This document shows positions 1 to 29,191 of a DNA stretch of 64,000 nt, in pieces. Position 1 is the first letter of the stretch. Each line of letters opens with the position of its first letter. Below the pieces are notes generated by a model. The model had not been told where the DNA came from, ran no database searches, and saw only the letters and a program-made list of their open reading frames with translations. A program made the position numbers and the translations under genes. Source of the DNA: Haliea alexandrii (lineage in GTDB: Bacteria; Pseudomonadota; Gammaproteobacteria; Pseudomonadales; Halieaceae); NCBI RefSeq assembly GCF_003719295.1, contig NZ_RFLW01000001.1:930001-994000 (forward strand). Reading direction: 5' to 3'.

Positions 1-1
1 T

Positions 2-1282
2 GCTGGCAACCAGCAAATCGCATGGGGTCAGTCGCTGTTCTTCCGGGTTATGGACGTTCCCAACGGTCTCGATCTGCGGCGTCACAGCGTGCTGGATTTC
101 GTTCCTGAAGAATTTTCAGACAAACGCGTCCCATCTCCGGCGATTCGAGCTCAGTACATGGTGGGTGGATGGGAGCTGGACGGGTTTGTTCAGCATTTTC
201 GACCGACTATATACGGAAATCCAGACACGCCTTACAACACAATTGCATCGCAGTTTACCATTCACGACATGTACGGTGATTATGACGACAAGGCAAATTT
301 CGGCGTTCGCGTACGCGGTGATGTAGGCGCCTTCACGGTGCAGGCAATGGCAACCAATCGCTACAATCCAGATGGTACATTTCGCTGGACTGAGTCTGGT
401 GTAAGCAAGTCACTAACGGGCTTACCCGGAGATGCCACCGCTGACCTGATGGCGACTACAGCCTTTGAGCGAGATTCTACTGGTGTGCTGTCTGCCAGGG
501 AGTGGTTTCATTACGCTGGACTTGCTCGGCTAGATGGCATCGATGGGCTCAATGCCGCGATCGCAGAGTTCCCTGGCGCACAGGCTCTTGGCGCCTATTT
601 GGTTGACAACGAATTTGACGCCGGACAGGAACTGGATCTGTTCTTTTCCTCTGCTGGAGGTCTGCGTGGGCATCTGGCGAGAGAATATCACCGCGAGAGC
701 GTATTCGGCCTTGGATTTGGCTATACCTTTAACGGCGAACCCGGTTCTTTTCTCGACCAGTTGATAGCCAACGTTGAGATCCAGTACGCGAACGACCGCA
801 CATTTACCAATCCGTCGCTAAGTCGCGAGCACATTGTCGAGGATGAAGTCATTACGTCGCTCGTGCTTGAGAAGTACCACCGTTTCTCCAGAGAGTTTCC
901 TGCGACCTATTTTGTGTTCCAGTGGATGCACCGTACCGAGAGTGACATCTTTGGTCGCCACCTGAGCGGCATGGGTGGGACTGAGGATCGTGCGGCACAG
1001 AACGCGCGAACACCTGGTAGTGCCAATTACGTAGCCGTAGCTCTTCAGCAGCCATCGCCAACGCTGAAGTGGCGTTTTGACTTCTCCATGCTGTACGACA
1101 TGGAAGGGGCTATGTTGTTGCAGCCAGCGGTGCGCTGGCGTCCGGGTGGGCCCTGGGGTGTGGAGGCATTTTTCAACCACATCATTGAGGACGGATTCAC
1201 CAGTCGCAGCGAAAATTACAATGCTCTTAGCACTGCGGGCTGGGCAGATGAGTTTACTCTGCGTGTAAGTTATTCGTTCTAG
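2..1282 (+). CDS. DUF1302-family outer-membrane protein, 5' truncated by window edge
   Basis: The reading frame is open from base 2, so the N-terminus lies outside the window; the first visible ATG is at 50, but in-frame residues before it (GNQQIAWGQSLFFRV) continue the protein. This stretch resembles the GxQxVxWGES-like region typical of DUF1302 proteins. The rest is rich in alternating polar and aromatic strands and ends in a C-terminal Phe (RVSYSF), as expected for an outer-membrane beta-barrel recognised by BAM. DUF1302 proteins usually lie beside DUF1329 proteins and RND-type exporters in lipid, sterol or terpene catabolic clusters; those partners would be to the left, out of view. The exact substrate is unknown. 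A clear terminator follows the stop codon. The segment looks more AT-rich than the right half of the window and lies inside the possible island ending at 4340. Confidence 0.72.
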   Translation, partial: AGNQQIAWGQSLFFRVMDVPNGLDLRRHSVLDFVPEEFSDKRVPSPAIRAQYMVGGWELDGFVQHFRPTIYGNPDTPYNTIASQFTIHDMYGDYDDKANFGVRVRGDVGAFTVQAMATNRYNPDGTFRWTESGVSKSLTGLPGDATADLMATTAFERDSTGVLSAREWFHYAGLARLDGIDGLNAAIAEFPGAQALGAYLVDNEFDAGQELDLFFSSAGGLRGHLAREYHRESVFGLGFGYTFNGEPGSFLDQLIANVEIQYANDRTFTNPSLSREHIVEDEVITSLVLEKYHRFSREFPATYFVFQWMHRTESDIFGRHLSGMGGTEDRAAQNARTPGSANYVAVALQQPSPTLKWRFDFSMLYDMEGAMLLQPAVRWRPGGPWGVEAFFNHIIEDGFTSRSENYNALSTAGWADEFTLRVSYSF

Positions 1283-1302
1283 TCTGTTGATGCGTTGTGT
1301 GC

Positions 1303-1334
1303 GCCCGTTTCCTCCTCGGAATCGGGCTTTTTTT
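1303..1334 (+). terminator. Rho-independent terminator after DUF1302 gene
   Basis: A ten-base stem with one mismatch (GCCCGTTTCC pairing with GGAATCGGGC) encloses a five-base loop and is followed directly by seven T residues. It lies 20 bases after the DUF1302 stop codon and about 80 bases before the next gene. Confidence 0.8.
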
Positions 1335-1415
1335 ACTCGAATACTGGCCGAAACACAGTCTGCGATATTTTGGGATCTTTTTGCAGTCAGGAGCGGTCGT
1401 AATTGAGGGGCAGTA

Positions 1416-2246
1416 ATGGCGGTATATAAACTGATCCTGGGTAACTACAGTTTCCAGGTGACTGACGAGGGTTCGGGTCCCCCAATACTGATGCTGCATG
1501 GGTTTCCCGATTCGGCGCGCCTCTGGCGATATCAGATACCCGCGCTGGTAGGGGCGGGCTATCGGGTGATTGCGCCTGACCAGCGCGGCTTCGGTGGTTC
1601 GGACAAGCCGCAGGAAATCGAGGCCTATGGGATAGCTGAGGTCCTGGGAGATGTGGTTGCTCTTCTCGATTATCTTGAATTGGAGCGGGTAGGCCTGGTC
1701 AGTCACGACTGGGGTGCGGCGGTTGGGTGGAGCCTGGCAGCTATTTACCCCGAACGGGTGGAGAAGCATGCTGCTCTTTCGGTAGGGCACATGACGGCCC
1801 TGTGGAATGCGGGTATCGCGCAACGACGACTGGCCTGGTATATGCTGGTGTTCATGCGGCAAGGGCTGGCCGAGGATATCATTACACGTCAGAACTGGCA
1901 GTTCTTTAGCGACCTGTGGGGCCATCATCCTGAGTTGGAGCATTGGATTCGTGATCTGTCGCGGCCGGGCGCCCTCACCGCGGCACTTAATTGGTACCGC
2001 GCCAATATGGATCTTGACTCCTGGACTGAAGAAGGCTGGCAAATGCCGCGTATCAGCGTACCGACAATGGGTATCTGGAGTAGCGGTGATATGTATCTGA
2101 CGGAAAGTCAGATGCTGGGTTCGGGGGAATTCATGGATGCACCGTGGCGCTACGAGAGACTGGAGGGCGCTACACACTGGCTCATGCTGGACAGACCCGA
2201 TAGCGTCAACGCCTTGCTGCTGGATTTCCTCGGCGCTGACAGCTAG
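1416..2246 (+). CDS. Alpha/beta hydrolase, epoxide hydrolase-like
   Basis: A 276-residue cytoplasmic alpha/beta-hydrolase. The oxyanion motif HGFP lies at residues 28-31. The nucleophile elbow reads SHDWGA with Asp98 as nucleophile, which fits epoxide hydrolases and haloalkane dehalogenases rather than serine esterases. Asp225 (SSGDMY) and His254 (GATHW) are the likely second acid and base. The cap contains NWYR near residue 192, a motif common in epoxide hydrolases that may supply a ring-opening Tyr. The start is supported by GAGGGG a few bases upstream. It probably hydrolyses an epoxide to a diol. The gene stands alone between a terminator and a convergent acyl-CoA dehydrogenase. Haloalkane dehalogenase is the main alternative; the substrate cannot be told. 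Confidence 0.82.
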   Translation: MAVYKLILGNYSFQVTDEGSGPPILMLHGFPDSARLWRYQIPALVGAGYRVIAPDQRGFGGSDKPQEIEAYGIAEVLGDVVALLDYLELERVGLVSHDWGAAVGWSLAAIYPERVEKHAALSVGHMTALWNAGIAQRRLAWYMLVFMRQGLAEDIITRQNWQFFSDLWGHHPELEHWIRDLSRPGALTAALNWYRANMDLDSWTEEGWQMPRISVPTMGIWSSGDMYLTESQMLGSGEFMDAPWRYERLEGATHWLMLDRPDSVNALLLDFLGADS

Positions 2247-2258
2247 GCGCGTACATCG

Positions 2259-2281
2259 GCGGCAGTAGGTCGTACTGCCGC
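2259..2281. terminator. Perfect hairpin between convergent genes
   Basis: GCGGCAGTA and TACTGCCGC form a perfect nine-base stem around a five-base loop, exactly between the stops of the convergent hydrolase and acyl-CoA dehydrogenase genes. There is no T-tract on either side, so it is not a classical intrinsic terminator. It could still act in both directions or protect 3' ends. Confidence 0.4.
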
Positions 2282-2287
2282 ACTGGA

Positions 2288-3589
2288 TTAGTTGTCCGGC
2301 GGAAACAGTCCAGCGCGTGCCTTCTCGTCGGCTTCAGCAAGAGTGAGAAAATTGCCGCTATTACCGTAGCGTGCAGGATCCGTTTCACCGACCCGACGTA
2401 TTTCCAGCCGGCCAACCTGATTGCGATGGACCTCGTCGGGGCCATCCGCCAGGCGAAGCAGGCGCGCCGTTGCATAAGCGGAGGTGAGGTGGTGGTCACT
2501 GCTTGTGCCACCGCCGCCGAAGGCCTGGATGGCCCAGTCGATAACCTGGCAGGCCATGTTGGGTGCCGCCACCTTTATCATGGCGATCTCCCGACGTGCC
2601 TCCTTGTTGCCTACCTTGTCCATTTTCCAGGCCGCATGCAAGGTCAGCAGGCGCGACTGCTCGATCATTATCCTCGCCTCCGCGATACGCTCCAGCGATA
2701 CTGACTGTTGTGAAACAGGGCTGCCAAAGGCCTCGCGGGCCTCTAACCGACGACACATGCGCTCAAGAATGCGCTCCGCCAGGCCGATCAGGCGCATGCA
2801 GTGGTGGATGCGGCCCGGGCCTAGGCGACCCTGGGCAATCTCGAAACCGCGGCCTTCACCAAGTAGCATGTTACTTGCGGGAACCCGAACGTTCTCGAAC
2901 ACGACTTCGGCCGCACGATCTGGAACGCCATAAAACCCGAACACTGGCAGCGAACGTACAACGCGGACGCCCGGCGTGTCCCTCGGCACGAGAATCATAG
3001 ACTGCTGCTTGTATCGATTCTCGTTATCTGGGGATGACTTGCCCATGAATATGATAATTTTGCAGCGCGGATCGGTTGCATTCGTTGTGTACCACTTACG
3101 GCCGTTGATCAGGTACTCGTCACCGTCCCTTACTATCGAGCTTTCAATATTGGTGGCGTCACTCGATGCTACTTCCGGCTCAGTCATGGCGAACGCGCTG
3201 CGGATTTCGCCGCGCAGAAGCGGCTCTGCCCACTGTTTGATCTGCGCTTCTGTACCAAAGCGGATTATGGTTTCCATATTGCCGGTGTCTGGCGCAGAGC
3301 AGTTGAACACTTCCGGGGCAAGGTGAGAGCGTCCCATCAGTGCGCAGAGTGGTGCGTATTCCAGGTTGCTGAGCCCTGCTCCATGCTCACTCTCGGGAAG
3401 AAACAGATTCCACAGGCCCTGGCTGATTGCGATCTTCTTGAGTTCCTCCACGACAGGATAGACTTTCCAGGGACCGAGTGTCTCGGCCTCGCGATAGAAC
3501 CGTTCTTCGTTGGGATAAATGTGGTCCGCAAGAAATTCCTCGATGCGGGCGGAGTATTCCCTCACTTTGTCACTGTATTCAAATTCCAC
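2288..3589 (-). CDS. Acyl-CoA dehydrogenase family protein
   Basis: A 433-residue FAD-dependent acyl-CoA dehydrogenase that would introduce the alpha-beta double bond in an acyl-CoA. Visible signatures are [15 protein letters not shown] near residue 60, the FAD/substrate motif [16 protein letters not shown] near 135, [18 protein letters not shown] near 245, and [11 protein letters not shown] near the C-terminus. These place it in the ACAD10/11-like branch; it is a clear paralogue of the dehydrogenase at 38711-39961. No electron-transfer partner is nearby. The upstream 700 bases hold no gene, so it probably has its own promoter there. It lies inside the possible tRNA-Lys-associated island, so it may have been acquired apart from the main catabolic operon. 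The substrate is unknown. Confidence 0.9.
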
Positions 3590-4295
3590 GGTATGGATTC
3601 CTGCGTTAGGGAGGGTTTTGTGGGTACTGCCACCTTCTCAATTACAATATGGTTTGCGTCGCGAAGGACTGCCGATCCTATCGTAGATATGGATCCTTAC
3701 TTATATTTAGGTTCTCAATGTATGCTAGACAGCCCCGCACTTCGGGTCAATAACCTACAAGGTTGTATTACAATAATGAGTGAACAATTCACCATTCGAT
3801 CACTGGCCAAGATGCAGACAATATTCGAGCGCGAGCCGAACTCGCAGCATCCCGCCCTAACGCTCTGGGTGCCGTTACCTAATTTTCATTACCCCCCGTC
3901 CCGGGAAGATTCTCTCCATAATGATAACGCAGGGGCATTTTGTTCTGGCGGTAACACCCCATTGCCTTTACCTGAGGCGCTCACTTGTGGCGTCCGACGA
4001 CAAGCTTCTGTTTCTTGGTCGAACCTGAGCAGGTAAGTTGAATTTCCTTCCTATATTCCTGGGCAGGTTGGGGTAAGACATCCCGGATCTACCTAATGAA
4101 GGCAATCCGCAGTTCGGGCCACCGGGGAGGAACAACGTCTGATGGCGGTAGGCGGGTAGTGCTCAACCAATCGGTCGCCACTGCCGGACTTTTGCCGGGA
4201 TCAGTCCTGCTTCGTTGTGCATTTCGGTGCGATTTGCAACGGGCGTCACCGATAAAAGGTACATTAAATCAACACGTTAGAAATTGGCTGGGCAT
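3590..4295. other. Non-coding stretch upstream of the tRNA-Lys fragment
   Basis: About 700 bases with no credible gene. Open frames here show no recognisable domain, and the longest one overlaps the antisense of the dehydrogenase. The sequence is AT-richer than most of the window. It presumably contains the promoter of the minus-strand dehydrogenase. Two short inverted repeats are visible: AACCT-aca-AGGTT at 3752-3764 and GTGAA-caa-TTCAC at 3780-3792. Either could be a regulator site, but neither is supported by a second copy. A 15-base stretch at 4164-4178 resembles part of the tRNA fragment that follows. I see no integrase or transposase remnant. Confidence 0.5.
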
Positions 4296-4340
4296 CTTTT
4301 AACCAATTGGTCGCTGGTTCGAATCCAGCACGGCCCACCA
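4296..4340 (+). other. 3' fragment of a tRNA-Lys(TTT) gene, attachment-site-like
   Basis: This 45-base sequence is what one expects for tRNA-Lys from the anticodon loop (CTTTTAA) to the encoded CCA end: the 3' anticodon strand CCAAT, a variable loop, a perfect T-arm (GCTGG-TTCGAAT-CCAGC) and the acceptor 3' strand ACGGCCC followed by ACCA. The 5' half is missing. The bases before the loop do not pair with CCAAT, and no GGGCCGT acceptor 5' strand lies about 76 bases upstream. A match starting in the anticodon loop and running to the 3' end is the usual att core of tyrosine-integrase elements that insert in tRNA genes. The terminator just downstream suggests this is the original 3' end, so the inserted DNA would lie to the left. 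Confidence 0.72.
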
Positions 4341-4368
4341 TATTCCTGAATAAAATCAGTAAGTTAGA

Positions 4369-4392
4369 AGCCTCCAGAACGGAGGCTTTTTT
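4369..4392 (+). terminator. Rho-independent terminator after the tRNA-Lys fragment
   Basis: AGCCTCC and GGAGGCT form a perfect seven-base stem with a five-base loop, followed by five T residues. It lies about 30 bases after the tRNA 3' end and was probably the native terminator of the tRNA-Lys transcript. The 250 bases from here to 4645 contain no gene I can support. Confidence 0.8.
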
Positions 4393-4645
4393 GTTGCTGT
4401 CTAGTAGTATCGAAAACACCCGATATTTCGAGTCAGATCGTTTCGTTTGCCGTCCGATCATGCCTCACGGTCGTGAGCTCACTTACTCTCAACATATCGA
4501 GTTGAGCCGGCGCTATCCAGGCTCAGCTGGAGCGCCGACTTTGACAAGGTCCTGGCACACGTCGAGGCAAAGGTTCTGTAACGGGAGGCCGCCACGCTCC
4601 CGCCGCCCCGTGCGAAAGCCGCTGTTGAATCCCCGGTGGCGGTCA

Positions 4646-5383
4646 CTACTCCTGGATAAAGAAACGCAGACGCGTGGGCTCTGACAGGTTACCGCGCCCA
4701 CCATTTGCGCAGGTGTCCACCGCCGTGCTCGCGGACCGCACGTCCTGATCGTCTGTGTAGCAGACCTTGTACATGCCGTTCGCGGCGTCGAAGCTCTCGA
4801 AGACGGCGTAGCCCGTCAGGTCGTTCCTGTCCGTGTCCGCGAGTTGCGTGTAGTTGATGACCGTGTCGTTGAGTTCGAAGGTGTACTTTCCGGCAGCTAT
4901 GATCGGCCCGGCGCGCTTGCTGTAGGTGCCGTTCTCAGAAAATTGATAGGTCACCGAGAGGCCAGACTCGCGCACCAGGAACGCCGTCGACTGGATGAGC
5001 GCCGGGTCAAATGCATCCGTGGGAATCTGCACGAACTGGGGTACGAGGAAGAATACTTCCTCCTGTCGCTCGATGAAGCCCATCAGGATGTCATTGCCCT
5101 CGAAGCCCGACGTGAAGAGCCGGCAGGACCCGTCGGAGCCGCCACACAGGCCGCGCTGGCGCTTCAGCCAGCTGTCGAAGCGGTAGCCGGTCGCCGGTTC
5201 GCCGCGGAAGGTTTCATCAAAAAACAGGTCCACGACATCGATTTCGCAGACGGCGCCAGTCTCGCAGGTGTAGCTACCGGACGTGGTGGTGACACGGCCA
5301 CCTTCCGGCACCTCGATGCGGATCTTGCAGCCACCCAGCAGAAGGGTGGACAAGGTGATGACTATCAGAATCGACTGCTTCAT
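4646..5383 (-). CDS. Lipoprotein with Cys-rich InlB-repeat-like domain (paralogue 1)
   Basis: The frame extends upstream, but the start at 5383 fits best: it gives a lipoprotein signal ending LLGGC (lipid Cys19) and has GAGGGAG about ten bases upstream. The product is 245 residues. Residues 19-100 form a domain with four further cysteines (40, 46, 80, 87) and the phrases VPEGG, DVVDLFFDETF, GYRF..W, RGLCGG and CRLFTSGF. This resembles the divergent InlB B-repeat pattern. The same domain, collinear without gaps and about two-thirds identical, is in the lipoprotein at 9815-10834; the C-terminal halves differ. The C-terminal half (about 120-245) contains beta-rich sequence with two more cysteines and no family I recognise. 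It is transcribed divergently from the winged-helix/TPR regulator at 5537, which may control it. Probably an outer-membrane-anchored periplasmic protein; function unknown. Confidence 0.75.
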   Translation of the reverse strand: MKQSILIVITLSTLLLGGCKIRIEVPEGGRVTTTSGSYTCETGAVCEIDVVDLFFDETFRGEPATGYRFDSWLKRQRGLCGGSDGSCRLFTSGFEGNDILMGFIERQEEVFFLVPQFVQIPTDAFDPALIQSTAFLVRESGLSVTYQFSENGTYSKRAGPIIAAGKYTFELNDTVINYTQLADTDRNDLTGYAVFESFDAANGMYKVCYTDDQDVRSASTAVDTCANGGRGNLSEPTRLRFFIQE

Positions 5384-5536
5384 TATGGGGTACTCCCTCG
5401 GATTCGCTGTCAGGACGGAATTCGCAATTCGCACCCGCAGGGTAGGACTTGAGACAAGTGGAGTGACGAAAACTGGACGAAAGTTCACGAAATCAGCGCG
5501 AAATTCGCGGAAAACTGTATTACGGGCGGTATGTGA

Positions 5537-7414
5537 ATGACTTCTGCAGTGGCCTCAGGGGCGCTCAGGCAATTTGAGCATTTTGCGATCGACGCAAGTC
5601 GGGGCGTGGTCCTGCGGGACGGCGAGACGATCACGCTGCGGCCGCAGTCGTTTCGCGTTCTGCAGTACCTGGTGGCCAACCCCGGCCGCCTGATTAGCAA
5701 GGAAGAGCTCTTCGACAGGATCTGGGGTGAGGCGGTGGTCACCGACGACAGCCTGGCGCAGTGTCTTGTGGACATCCGCCGGGCCCTTGGCGATGAGGGC
5801 CGGCACGCGGTCAGGACGCTGCCCCGTCGAGGGTACCTGTTCAATGCCCGGGCCGTGGATACGCCGGCCGCCACACAGCCGCCCGCGTCCGCAGCCTTGT
5901 CCGGCACGATCCGTGGAGCCTGGCTCGCGGCGGCGATAGTGGGATTGGGTGCATTGCTGCTGGCGTGGTGGCTGTTCCTGAGGCCCGAGTCCGATTCAGT
6001 AGATAGACCCGCGGCATCTTCCCCGGTCGTTGCGGTGCTGCCCTTCGCCGACTTCACGGCGGCGGGTGACAGGGACTATCTGGCCCTCGGCCTGCCGGAA
6101 GAAATCATCAACAGCCTGACCCGGGTGCATGGCCTGCGGGTTATCTCCCGCACCTCGTCATTCCTGCCGCAGCTGGGTCAGCAGCTGACCGCAACGGAGA
6201 TCGGTGCGCAGCTGGGCGCCACGCACCTCCTCGAGGGCAGTATTCGCGAACACGACGGGCTCCTGCGGATCACGATACAGCTGATCGAAACGAACAGTGG
6301 CCACCATGTCTGGTCCGAGACACTCGACCGCAGGTACGGCGATATCCTGCGCGTACAGAGCCAGGTCGCCAGCGCTGTTGCGGGCCTGTTCCAGCTGACG
6401 GTGATGGAGCCGGCCGGGTCTGACACGGTGATAGCCCCGGACGATTACACACTGTACCTGCGCGCCCTGCACGTGCTGCGAAGCGGTGAGTTCGCCGAAC
6501 TGGGCAGCGCGATCACGTCACTGGAGGGCGTCGCGCGCAGGAGTCCACGTTTTATCCCGGTGCGGGATCTTCTGACCCGGAGCTACCTGCTGCAGGTCTA
6601 TCGGGGCGAATTGTCCGGGACCGACGTGGCGCAACGGGTTCGCACGCTGGCCGAGGAGATGCTCGCCGTACCCTCCGGCAGTGCTGGCGCCCACGGGGCC
6701 CTGGCCGCACTGGCCCTCAAGGTAGAGAACGACCTGCCGGCAGCGGCGGAGCACGTGACCGAGGCCCTGGCGCAGGAGCCGTGGAATCCCCGGTTCCTGG
6801 GACTTGCCGGCGAACTTGCCTACGCACTGGAACGCTTTCCCGCGGCGGTGGCCCTGTATCAGGGAGCGCTCGATCTCGATCCCTTCTGCACCGCCTGCTA
6901 CATGCACCAGGCACAGGCCTACATCGCCGCCGGTCAGCCGCGCCAGGCCGAGGCCGCCGTCCGGCAGGTTATGGAACGGTCTCGCGGCGGCCACCTGACC
7001 CTCGGTCTGACCAGGATCATGCAGGGCGATTTCGCGGCGGCACAGGAGATTATCGATCAGACGGTGCCGGCAAAGGCGAGAAAGTTCCAGGAATTCTACC
7101 AGGCATTGCTGTGTCACGCGCAAGGCGACATCGCGTGCTTCCGTTCACGGCTCGAGCGTTTCGAGGCCGAGAACGGTGAATCCGAGGCCATGCGTATCGC
7201 GCAGCTGCACGCCGTCGGTGGCGACGTGGATGCGGCCTTCCGATGGCTGGCGCGCCTGCGCGAGCGCAAACAGACGCTGCTGCTGAAGAACCTGCCGGAC
7301 CCCCTGTTTGACAACCTGCGCGAAGACCCGCGCTGGCAGCACATGCTGGCGGAGCTCGGTCGCGCGCCGCAGCAGCTGCGGCAGATAGCGTTTGATGCCG
7401 CTCCACAAGGGTAG
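5537..7414 (+). CDS. Membrane winged-helix (OmpR/CadC-type) TPR regulator
   Basis: A 625-residue one-component regulator of the CadC/ToxR type. Residues about 10-100 form an OmpR/PhoB winged helix (LRPQSFRVLQYLVANPGRLI, then a wing with RTLPRRGYLF). One membrane helix follows at about 127-149 (GAWLAAAIVGLGALLLAWW). The periplasmic part begins with a TolB-like domain (VAVLPFADF, LGLPEEIINSLTR, LLEGSIRE) found in adenylate-cyclase-like TPR proteins, followed by tetratricopeptide repeats to the C-terminus. It would bind DNA from the membrane and sense a periplasmic signal through the TPRs. No phosphorylation site is expected. It is divergent from lipoprotein paralogue 1, with about 150 bases between them, so self- or neighbour regulation is plausible. 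The signal is unknown. Confidence 0.85.
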   Translation: MTSAVASGALRQFEHFAIDASRGVVLRDGETITLRPQSFRVLQYLVANPGRLISKEELFDRIWGEAVVTDDSLAQCLVDIRRALGDEGRHAVRTLPRRGYLFNARAVDTPAATQPPASAALSGTIRGAWLAAAIVGLGALLLAWWLFLRPESDSVDRPAASSPVVAVLPFADFTAAGDRDYLALGLPEEIINSLTRVHGLRVISRTSSFLPQLGQQLTATEIGAQLGATHLLEGSIREHDGLLRITIQLIETNSGHHVWSETLDRRYGDILRVQSQVASAVAGLFQLTVMEPAGSDTVIAPDDYTLYLRALHVLRSGEFAELGSAITSLEGVARRSPRFIPVRDLLTRSYLLQVYRGELSGTDVAQRVRTLAEEMLAVPSGSAGAHGALAALALKVENDLPAAAEHVTEALAQEPWNPRFLGLAGELAYALERFPAAVALYQGALDLDPFCTACYMHQAQAYIAAGQPRQAEAAVRQVMERSRGGHLTLGLTRIMQGDFAAAQEIIDQTVPAKARKFQEFYQALLCHAQGDIACFRSRLERFEAENGESEAMRIAQLHAVGGDVDAAFRWLARLRERKQTLLLKNLPDPLFDNLREDPRWQHMLAELGRAPQQLRQIAFDAAPQG

Positions 7415-9498: not shown

Positions 9499-9814
9499 TT
9501 TTGATCTTGTGCTGAGTGACACGGCCGCATGGGTTTCAAAGACCTCAATCTGGAGCCCCTCCGAGAGCCGTAAGCGGGGTGAATAATCCGACACTGGTCG
9601 CACCTGTAGCTGCTGGCGTAATGATCGGCTCTCTGCGACCATGTGCGCATTGCCGTTCTTGGTGCACCACAGTGGCGGATTTGGACTATTCTTGTTATGA
9701 GTCTTCCTGTCGCTGGCGGCGTTGCTGTGGCTGTCCTGCGCGCTGCGGCGGTAGGTCGTCTGATCCTGCGGCGAGCTCGCGCCAGCCGTGATCGACAGCG
9801 AGGGAGGTAGCGTC
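9499..9814. other. Intergenic region before lipoprotein 2
   Basis: About 315 bases between the GGDEF-EAL gene and lipoprotein paralogue 2. A 91-codon plus-strand frame and a minus-strand frame cross it, but neither shows a domain, plausible composition or a good ribosome site. It presumably carries the lipoprotein promoter; I could not pick out a convincing -10/-35 pair. Confidence 0.4.
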
Positions 9815-10834
9815 ATGCGTTTTTACAGGTACAGCGGTGGTCTGCTCCTGCTGTTGGCGTTGAGCGCCTGCAAGATATCAATCACCGTGCCCGAGGGCGG
9901 CTCGGTGGTCACGGAGTCAGGCAGTCTGAACTGCCGGGCCGGCAGTACCTGCCTCGTGGACGTGGTCGACCTGTTCTTTGACGAGACCTTCGTGGCCCGG
10001 CCCGCCGAGGGCTATCGCTTTGCGCAGTGGCGCAAACAGCACCGCGGACTCTGCGGTGGCAACAGTTCGCCCTGCAGGTTGTTCACATCCGGTTTCGCGG
10101 GCAATGACGCCCTGCTCGCATTTCTCGATAACGACGAGGTGTTCTTCCTCGACCCGGTATTCGAGTCAACCACGCCGGGCGATTACGGCAACGAGCCACT
10201 CAGTGCCTGTTTCAACCCCGCACTCTTCAGGCAGGGCACGCGCTTTGTGTCTGAATACCGCAGGCCGGGGTTCGGCGGCGGCTACTTTGTGGCCGAATTC
10301 GACCAGGTGATTGACGGCAGCGGCCTGTTTCGCGGAAACGCTGCCACGCGCATGCGGCTGGAGCAGCGCGATGATGGCGAACTACTGGCCACCAACCTGA
10401 CCTGGTTTTCCATCAATACAAGCGCACAGCAGTTGCGGTACTACGGCAGTGAGGCAGAAACCACAATGCCGCCCACCACGTCGGCCACGGTAGTCCTCGC
10501 ACCATTCAAGCTCAACCGCTGGGACCTGGCGGCCGGACAGAGTTTCGAGCAAAGCTACTCCTCCACGGTGGAGGACAGCCGCGGTGCCTCCTCCAGCCAG
10601 AGCCTGGAGCTGAAGACCACGTATTTGGGCACCGAGACAATCACTGTGCCAGCTGGTACCTATACCGCTTGCCGGGTGCTCGAGGAATCGGTGGAAACGT
10701 CGGGCCTGGGAGTGCCCGTGCGCTCAGCGGAAACGCAGTGGTATGCACTGGGCAACGGTATACTGTTACGTGCCGAATCGGAGGATTCTTTTCAGGAGTT
10801 TCTGGGCGGAACGATCAACGGTGTCGCACAGTAG
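9815..10834 (+). CDS. Lipoprotein with Cys-rich InlB-repeat-like domain (paralogue 2)
   Basis: Start at 9815, preceded by GAGGGAGGT; an upstream in-frame ATG at 9788 would add nine polar residues before the signal peptide. The product is 339 residues. The signal ends LALSAC (lipid Cys19). Cys40, 46, 80 and 87 fall at the same positions as in the lipoprotein at 4646-5383, and residues 19-100 align without gaps (54 of 82 identical by my count). The C-terminal region is different: it contains LGTETITVPAGTYTACRV and WYALGNGILL, phrases typical of DUF3108/TapB-like periplasmic beta domains. The pair therefore shares an anchor domain joined to different effector domains. Probably exported to the outer membrane; function unknown. 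Confidence 0.78.
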   Translation: MRFYRYSGGLLLLLALSACKISITVPEGGSVVTESGSLNCRAGSTCLVDVVDLFFDETFVARPAEGYRFAQWRKQHRGLCGGNSSPCRLFTSGFAGNDALLAFLDNDEVFFLDPVFESTTPGDYGNEPLSACFNPALFRQGTRFVSEYRRPGFGGGYFVAEFDQVIDGSGLFRGNAATRMRLEQRDDGELLATNLTWFSINTSAQQLRYYGSEAETTMPPTTSATVVLAPFKLNRWDLAAGQSFEQSYSSTVEDSRGASSSQSLELKTTYLGTETITVPAGTYTACRVLEESVETSGLGVPVRSAETQWYALGNGILLRAESEDSFQEFLGGTINGVAQ

Positions 10835-29117: not shown

Positions 29118-29191
29118 TGGAGCGGGTGATGGGAATCGAACCCACGCTATCAGCTTGGGAAGCTGAAGTTCTGCCATTGAACTACACCCGC
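29118..29191 (-). tRNA. tRNA-Gly(CCC)
   Basis: A 74-base tRNA on the minus strand with encoded CCA. The acceptor stem pairs GCGGGTG with CACCCGC. The anticodon arm is TCAGC-TTCCCAA-GCTGA, giving anticodon CCC for glycine codon GGG. The T-arm contains GTGGG-TTCGATT-CCCAT (one weak end pair). The D-loop holds AATGG. The structure matches E. coli glyU in layout. The GC-rich promoter region just upstream is listed separately. Confidence 0.95.

Follow-up and report, generated by a model that had tools for sequence, protein, structure and literature searches.

A 35-kb genomic island, probably mobile, at a tRNA-Lys gene of the marine bacterium Haliea alexandrii, and related elements in Halieaceae

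Haliea alexandrii, a marine bacterium, carries a 35.2-kb genomic island that is almost certainly mobile and inserted by site-specific tyrosine recombination at the 3' end of tRNA-Lys(TTT). The island spans C1:899151-934340 (C1, contig NZ_RFLW01000001.1); its right-hand 4.34 kb occupy positions 1 to 4340, unstranded, of the window, i.e. the whole 64,000-nucleotide stretch analysed (C1:930001-994000). Its limits were drawn from a repeated core and an intact tRNA-Lys gene, and from the contrast in identity with a second species described below. The ends, the integrase, the recent transfer and the unoccupied sites can be read in the sequences compared, from which we infer excision, the route of transfer and the substrate of the cargo pathway. 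The original prediction of a tRNA-Lys genomic island at 1 to 4340, with the inserted DNA to the left, is supported; its direction was right, and its extent is corrected here, as most of the island (30.85 kb) lies left of the window.

Positions 4296-4340 (plus strand) had been recognized by eye as the last 45 bases of tRNA-Lys(TTT), from the anticodon loop to CCA, lacking a 5' half. They are identical at 45 of 45 positions to C1:899106-899150, the 3' end of an intact tRNA-Lys(TTT) gene (C1:899075-899150) located on the same strand of the same contig, 35,190 bp to the left of the fragment, where such a gene was expected. Upstream of position 4296, no similarity to the tRNA 5' half was visible. 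ARAGORN called a tRNA at the intact locus and none at 4296-4340, the sole tRNA in the window being tRNA-Gly (29118-29191), and Rfam at gathering thresholds reported the tRNA and nothing else over 899001-936000 of C1. By a naive hand calculation, an exact 45-mer is expected about 1e-20 times by chance in this 3.96-Mb genome. Words repeated directly at both island ends were 8 bases long, for which about one per strand is expected by chance (hand estimate). The strong terminator announced after the fragment corresponds to a terminator-like stem-loop followed by T's at 4366-4390 (plus strand), outside the island; the 3500-5600 interval contained 4 terminator-like sites, compared with 1.6 expected from shuffles. 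The inserted DNA is indeed AT-richer, with a GC content of 55.1% in 1-4340 versus 62.3% in 4341-64000, and of 57.5% for the whole island versus 63% in the 9 kb to its left.

An integrase gene had been anticipated at the intact tRNA, and a tyrosine integrase gene (PF00589, E 1e-12, and PF02899) was found at C1:899174-900268, pointing at tRNA-Lys with its 3' end 23 bp away. Behind it lie an overlapping 111-aa ORF and then a second tyrosine recombinase (PF12834/PF12835). Integrases 92-98% identical to this one directly adjoin tRNA-Lys in G001, G007, G010 and G024. A tRNA lies at most 250 bp from the integrase 3' end and faces it in 59 of 80 named integrase relatives, and in none does one lie there in the opposite orientation; the other 21 have no facing tRNA within 250 bp, for which a stretch shorter than 150 bp beyond the gene can account in at most 5.

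Comparison of the genome under study (G000) with G007, an uncultured Haliea sp. of another species, indicates that the island was recently transferred horizontally. G007 carries the same island at the same tRNA-Lys, with 96.9-100% identity per kb (about 99%) from 903 kb to the core, whereas identity is 74-83% in the chromosomal part preceding the tRNA; the alignment stops 6 bp beyond the core. Between the two genomes, the integrase module (C1:899-903 kb) shows 88-95% identity and the cargo about 99%, and the ends and the cargo therefore have partly separate histories. Of 140 family genomes, 3 encode a 518-aa cargo marker protein, and just two of them belong to the genus, so that the fragment and its gene order are not common to all close relatives. 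G017 carries the same cargo in rearranged form, its main pieces being about 75-83% identical in DNA, and no tRNA-Lys was found in the 60 kb examined there; the cargo is thus not confined to this element.

Empty sites, with the intact tRNA-Lys followed directly by a hairpin, were present in several genomes, in line with what an insertion predicts; a hairpin lies directly 3' of the intact tRNA-Lys in 15 of 30 loci examined (folds judged by eye). Examples of unoccupied sites are those of G003, G008, G013 and G018. Only G018, which belongs to another genus, matches the right junction among these (83% over 4296-4394), and a sequence similar to the 4366-4390 hairpin lies 3' of its intact tRNA-Lys. 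The two genes before tRNA-Lys are conserved in G004, G008, G013 and G018, and the downstream genes differ; a search for a downstream neighbour common to G000 and either G013 or G018 gave none. The DNA from position 4614 rightwards adjoins ssrA and not tRNA-Lys in two further genomes of the genus, and in a third genome it lies beside a tmRNA-like 3' end; hence the right flank does not behave as a simple conserved neighbour.

We propose that the integrase recombined the attP site of an incoming circle with the last 45 bp of the tRNA gene. With its own copy of the core, the island would have rebuilt the tRNA at the left junction (attL), next to the integrase gene, and the 3' end originally present would have been displaced to the right junction (attR, 4296-4340). 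As no conjugation gene was found among the scanned island ORFs, transfer from cell to cell probably relies on other elements, transduction or DNA uptake.

Remnants of tRNA genes occur in genomes, and ARAGORN saw no functional tRNA at the fragment, as would be the case if it had arisen by decay or duplication and no integration had taken place. Such an origin has next to no likelihood: it does not account for an exact match beginning at the anticodon loop, for an integrase beside the intact copy, for the presence of this 35-kb block at the corresponding tRNA of G007, or for the conserved non-tRNA block that precedes 11 such cores. Both a chance match and tRNA decay were ruled out by the 45/45 identity together with the G007 comparison. 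We also consider it very unlikely that the island is a defective prophage or an integrative conjugative element carrying catabolic genes by happenstance. A PHROGs search of the two recombinases and the 111-aa ORF matched both recombinases to phage integrases, and a contig listed as viral in IMG/VR spans this tRNA-Lys site in H. salexigens together with a second copy of the core; its two end pieces that were compared match G005 at 100% identity. Nevertheless, no structural (capsid, tail), packaging, relaxase or mating-pair family was detected among the Pfam-scanned island proteins, the scan having covered the listed ORFs of 90 aa or more except three of 90-153 aa and a fourth that lies antisense to the hydrolase gene. 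Both identities were rejected for the scanned proteins.

Unlikely too, if somewhat less so, is a succession of two nested events, in which an integrase element would have settled beside an older cargo mobile only by homologous recombination. This would fit the lower conservation of the integrase module than of the cargo between G000 and G007, the existence of the cargo elsewhere in G017, and the hotspot character of tRNA-Lys, several cores occurring within a single genome. However, the other side of the cargo bears the right-end block and core typical of the element family, and integration of the island at tRNA-Lys by its tyrosine integrase remains the preferred reading.

The right-end block, about 115 bp just inside the right end (4178-4295, plus strand), was found in 18 of the 140 family genomes and is a candidate arm-binding region for the integrase. 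It aligned at 8 of the 10 tRNA-Lys fragments fetched (further fragments are known beyond those 10), the two fragments devoid of it being G005 C7 and G021 C9. A tRNA-Lys core with at most 3 mismatches comes after 11 of 21 blocks, and the G064 block is followed by the first 28 bases of this core only. Three of the 21 (G065, G131, G145) precede a tRNA-Arg(ACG) 3' end, exact in all three, and the G141 block precedes a partial tRNA-Arg-type 3' end, read by eye. No tRNA core was found within 260 bp of the blocks of G017 C23, G074, G048, G004 C36 and G142; for lack of such a core, the G074 and G048 elements have only provisional right borders. In G131, an integrase 71% identical to that of the island lies at tRNA-Arg(ACG), and 12,242 bp away the last 45 bp of that tRNA recur exactly after the block, a repeat that proves the same end geometry at another tRNA.

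As the block and the tRNA-Lys and tRNA-Arg cores show, related elements have their ends in common, differ in cargo and can insert at an alternative tRNA. A broader reading, tentative and in our judgement just short of an even chance when all its parts are taken jointly, is that one lineage of Halieaceae integrative elements acts as a cargo shuttle. The left module would comprise the integrase, the 111-aa ORF and often the second tyrosine recombinase, the right one the roughly 115-bp end and the 45-bp tRNA core, and catabolic, antiphage and efflux cargo would be exchanged between them. The target would have switched from tRNA-Lys to tRNA-Arg in some members with core length unchanged, and the island of the window would be the catabolic member, having spread an unusual phenolic-ketone pathway, with a multi-part dikinase and a biotin carboxylase, between species.

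Three cargo genes lie in the window: the 3' part of a DUF1302 gene (1-1282, plus strand; whole ORF C1:929411-931282; PF06980, E 6.9e-18), an alpha/beta hydrolase gene (1416-2246, plus strand; PF00561, E 2.1e-30) and an acyl-CoA dehydrogenase gene (2288-3589, minus strand; PF00441, PF02770, PF02771). The original prediction had listed them as a DUF1302 protein, an epoxide-hydrolase-like protein and a dehydrogenase. The island also encodes a three-part biotin-dependent carboxylase (BCCP, PF00364; BC, PF00289/02786/02785; CT, PF02436 and PF00682), and the cargo operon contains CoA ligase, short-chain dehydrogenase, thiolase and SurE genes. The kinase-type genes encode a 593-aa protein of PPDK type (ATP-grasp/PPDK_N and swivel), which is a pyruvate, phosphate dikinase by NCBIfam NF004531 (above cut-off), a separate 276-aa swivel-domain protein, and the 518-aa protein, which has no family match. 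As a single sequence the latter matched nothing in Pfam, NCBIfam or PDB; an eight-sequence profile gave no PDB match (an insignificant line to 1pf5, E about 0.6), nor did members searched singly against Pfam (insignificant DUF1707 and Rrp40_N, one member each, E 0.01-0.02). For the 276-aa protein, a PDB search at E 0.1 gave nothing. The HpeH motif, quoted as T/SxxGGxxxH in PMC12167813, was not found in the 276-aa protein and is present in the 593-aa protein as TEQGGSTSH.

The operon resembles phosphorylation-carboxylation pathways for 4-hydroxyacetophenone/acetovanillone, a substrate of this kind being presumed; most likely it would phosphorylate, carboxylate, CoA-activate and thiolytically cleave a phenolic ketone, and the MMPL/YCF48/DUF1329/DUF1302 set most likely serves a lipophilic compound. 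With the Hpe pathway of Rhodococcus rhodochrous GD02 (PMC9618137, PMC12167813) it shares gene kinds, namely putative dikinase parts, three-part biotin carboxylase and CoA ligase. It differs in its kinase genes (593-aa PPDK type, 276-aa swivel and 518-aa protein) and in the presence of thiolase and SurE genes; no NagD-type or CouO-type gene appeared in the Pfam hits of the scanned island ORFs. The anaerobic p-ethylphenol/4-hydroxyacetophenone pathway of Aromatoleum aromaticum EbN1 (Hped1, HacABC, AcsA1, TioL1; PMC10715001) likewise brings together short-chain dehydrogenase, biotin carboxylase, CoA ligase and thiolase genes, a likeness by description. Similar clusters were found in family f107.

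Among the literature matches listed, judged by titles and abstract openings, none dealt with islands at tRNA-Lys in Haliea or Halieaceae, or with hydroxyacetophenone pathways in Haliea. A tRNA fragment read by eye in raw sequence led to the precise location of a 35-kb mobile island, and a rare operon, probably for aromatic-ketone carboxylation, is tied to a transferable element in marine bacteria. The recurrent right end of about 115 bp and the related elements using tRNA-Arg(ACG) are new here, and the common ends offer a way to search for further relatives and to test cargo swap and the change of tRNA target by the integrase. That the island belongs to a known kind, the tRNA-integrated genomic islands, is well supported. 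Tycheposons of Methylophilaceae, by their description in PMC10872708, also combine a tRNA border, a tyrosine recombinase and variable metabolic cargo, the border described there being tRNA-Met and here tRNA-Lys. The tDNA islands catalogued by Islander (PMC4383910) similarly have an intact tRNA at one end, a displaced fragment at the other and a tyrosine integrase inside; the present island has, in addition, a second tyrosine recombinase and the conserved block at its right end.

The original prediction of a displaced tRNA-Lys(TTT) 3' fragment was borne out: window 4296–4340 matches the 3' end of an intact tRNA-Lys at 45 of 45 bases, from the anticodon loop to CCA, no tRNA similarity is visible upstream of 4296, where the 5' half is missing, and a terminator-like hairpin follows at 4366–4390. 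ARAGORN called no tRNA at the fragment, its single call in the window being a tRNA-Gly (29118–29191). The intact tRNA-Lys expected to the left lies at C1:899075–899150 (C1 is the contig carrying the window), and the integrase gene expected beside it encodes a 364-aa tyrosine integrase whose 3' end is 23 bp away. In this genome (3.96 Mb, 12 contigs) the 131 bases around the fragment match three sites, the fragment itself, the intact tRNA-Lys and, weakly, a site at tRNA-Asn on contig C6. Because both tRNA-Lys copies share one contig and strand, 35,190 bp apart, the island was delimited as C1:899151–934340. The proposed island is real and recently mobile, and only the right-hand 4.34 kb falls within the window. 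This part is indeed AT-richer (GC 55.1%, versus 62.3% in window 4341–64000); GC is 57.5% for the whole island and 63.0% in the 9 kb to its left.

Transfer between species was examined with the MAG of an uncultured Haliea sp. (G007). The backbone left of the tRNA (881–899 kb) is 74–83% identical between the two genomes, in 1-kb steps, versus 96.9–100% in each step between 903 kb and the core, the 45-bp tRNA 3' end; a 24.8-kb island piece is 99.35% identical, and the alignment stops 6 bp beyond the core. The integrase module (C1:899–903 kb, the island's first 4 kb) is 88–95% identical, versus about 99% for the cargo (903–934 kb), which suggests that elements have swapped modules. A 518-aa cargo protein used as a marker is present in three of 140 family genomes (this one, G007 and G017).

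The module comprises the integrase (C1:899174–900268, minus strand; PF00589, PF02899), an overlapping 111-aa ORF behind it, and a second tyrosine recombinase behind the integrase (C1:900484–901383; PF12834, PF12835); NCBIfam gave only Xer-type matches, far under the cut-offs. Among 80 named loci of integrase relatives, 59 have a facing tRNA no more than 250 bp away and none has an opposed one at that distance; 72 retain the 111-aa ORF and 24 the second recombinase. Their targets include tRNA-Lys, Met, Arg, Pro and Thr. Ten of the 80 integrases are at least 91% identical; eight have a facing tRNA-Lys call (in Haliea salexigens, the second, degenerate copy), and the two without one are a truncated copy and a locus on a short contig.

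The island's right end is also shared. About 115 bp just inside it (window ~4178–4295) are kept at eight of 10 fetched tRNA-Lys fragments. This block occurs in 18 of the 140 family genomes (E <= 1e-6) and the integrase in 30 (E <= 1e-100), own genome included in both. Eleven of 21 blocks are followed by the tRNA-Lys core (at most three mismatches) and three by the 3' end of tRNA-Arg(ACG) (G065, G131, G145); in the remaining seven the core is partial or absent. In G131 (L244, C1:1434548–1448125) an intact tRNA-Arg(ACG) is adjoined by a 71%-identical integrase, and the tRNA's last 45 bases recur exactly 12,242 bp away, directly after the block. Core length and anticodon-loop start are equal to those of our island, and the tRNA is different. 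A further integrase ORF (49% identical) faces the displaced fragment and stops just short of it, as would be expected of a tandem element. The block shares 8-base words, taken without a chance control, with the end of our island that bears the integrase; these could be arm sites for the integrase.

Cargo of related elements was scanned for selected large ORFs. The 12.2-kb G131 element carries an RND pump. In G074 (L242–L243, C1:1590071–1614850) there is an integrase at tRNA-Lys and, some 24 kb from it, a block, with LmuB, AbiEii and GajB-like proteins in between. In G048 the block is about 7 kb from a tRNA-Lys with integrase, and three further tyrosine recombinase ORFs lie in a row between them (L245, C74:2638–5931). 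No second core was found in G074 or G048, so both sets of borders are provisional. G144 has genes for a sulfatase, a TonB receptor and a molybdopterin oxidoreductase, with a truncated integrase on one side and a core-bearing block on the other, and no tRNA was found in the 26 kb; on contig C23 of G017 a PglX-type gene is about 11 kb from a block without core or tRNA.

Among 30 tRNA-Lys loci, an integrase of the family lies directly 3' of the tRNA in five (this genome, designated G000, with G001, G007, G010 and G024), and an integrase piece is near the G004 locus. In 15 a hairpin comes immediately after the intact tRNA (G003, G004, G008, G009, G011–G018, G022, G033, G034), as judged by eye from predicted folds, 10 other loci being left unclassified. 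Two genes 5' of the tRNA, which we take to be queE and queC, are kept in G004, G008, G013 and G018, and the genes 3' of it differ. In H. salexigens there is a second core about 41 kb past the intact tRNA, with a 93%-identical integrase after it (L042–L044, C7:168350–210948), which may be read as two elements in tandem; a 46-kb IMG/VR contig across this stretch is classed as viral. The flank on the right of our island is itself either rearranged or mobile.

Window 4614–7400 lies near the tRNA-Lys fragment here. Its counterpart is next to ssrA, the tmRNA gene, in G003 and G006, both of the genus; in a third such genome, G001, it adjoins what reads by eye as a tmRNA-like 3' end. Proteins encoded on opposite strands at window 4646–5488 (minus) and 9788–10834 (plus) share a similar lipoprotein-like N-terminus (KI.I.VPEGG), and window 9959–10155 has 69–71% DNA similarity to relatives of the 4646–5488 gene.

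In kind the island is ordinary; its cargo is unusual, its ends are well marked, and some of its relatives use another tRNA. Protein families were scanned in its ORFs of at least 90 aa, apart from C1:901485–901757, 901809–902270, 902679–902972 and antisense 931254–932177. The left part encodes, in order, SurE, a thiolase-like protein, an acyl-CoA ligase, GntR, two SDRs and GntR. A minus-strand operon encodes a thiolase (397 aa), carboxyltransferase (484), biotin carboxylase (455), BCCP (175), a PPDK_N plus PEP-utiliser protein (593), a 201-aa protein, an acyl-CoA ligase (494), the 518-aa protein and a PEP-utiliser (276). SurE, MMPL, a YCF48-like protein, two DUF1329, DUF1302, an alpha/beta hydrolase and an acyl-CoA dehydrogenase make up the right part. 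The operon order is kept, at 43–76% protein identity, in G365, G466 (C81) and G243 (C18, without the thiolase in the fetched stretch), and partial second clusters are also present. N. resinovorum pSA1 carries a related cluster that includes a SurE gene and is ordered differently, and another occurs on R. oxybenzonivorans pRB98. The 518-aa protein (L005:10903–12459; C1:918903–920459), a conserved family without match in Pfam, NCBIfam or PDB, is found in four of 369 class genomes, own included. In all eight loci examined, this island and seven related ones, a swivel-domain gene adjoins that of the 518-aa protein or is at most about 8 kb from it. The 593-aa protein, named pyruvate, phosphate dikinase by NCBIfam, matches no more of PPDK than that enzyme's N-terminal ~550 residues.

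In published pathways, 4-hydroxyacetophenone or acetovanillone is phosphorylated by a two-component dikinase (HpeHI) and carboxylated by the biotin enzyme HpeCBA, after which the phosphate is removed and the acid CoA-activated (PMC9618137, PMC12167813); the order in A. aromaticum is Hped1, HacABC, AcsA1, TioL1 (PMC10715001), and Sphingobium SYK-6 has a similar Acv pathway (PMC13101465). By inference from these pathways, we lean slightly towards the operon specifying a phenolic-ketone pathway. The island's SurE genes could be the source of the phosphatase, and our guess from context is that substrate binding falls to the 518-aa protein. The island holds the same gene kinds as the published phenolic-ketone pathways, among them the SurE genes and those for the 593-aa PPDK-type protein, a separate swivel-domain protein and the conserved 518-aa protein without known family.
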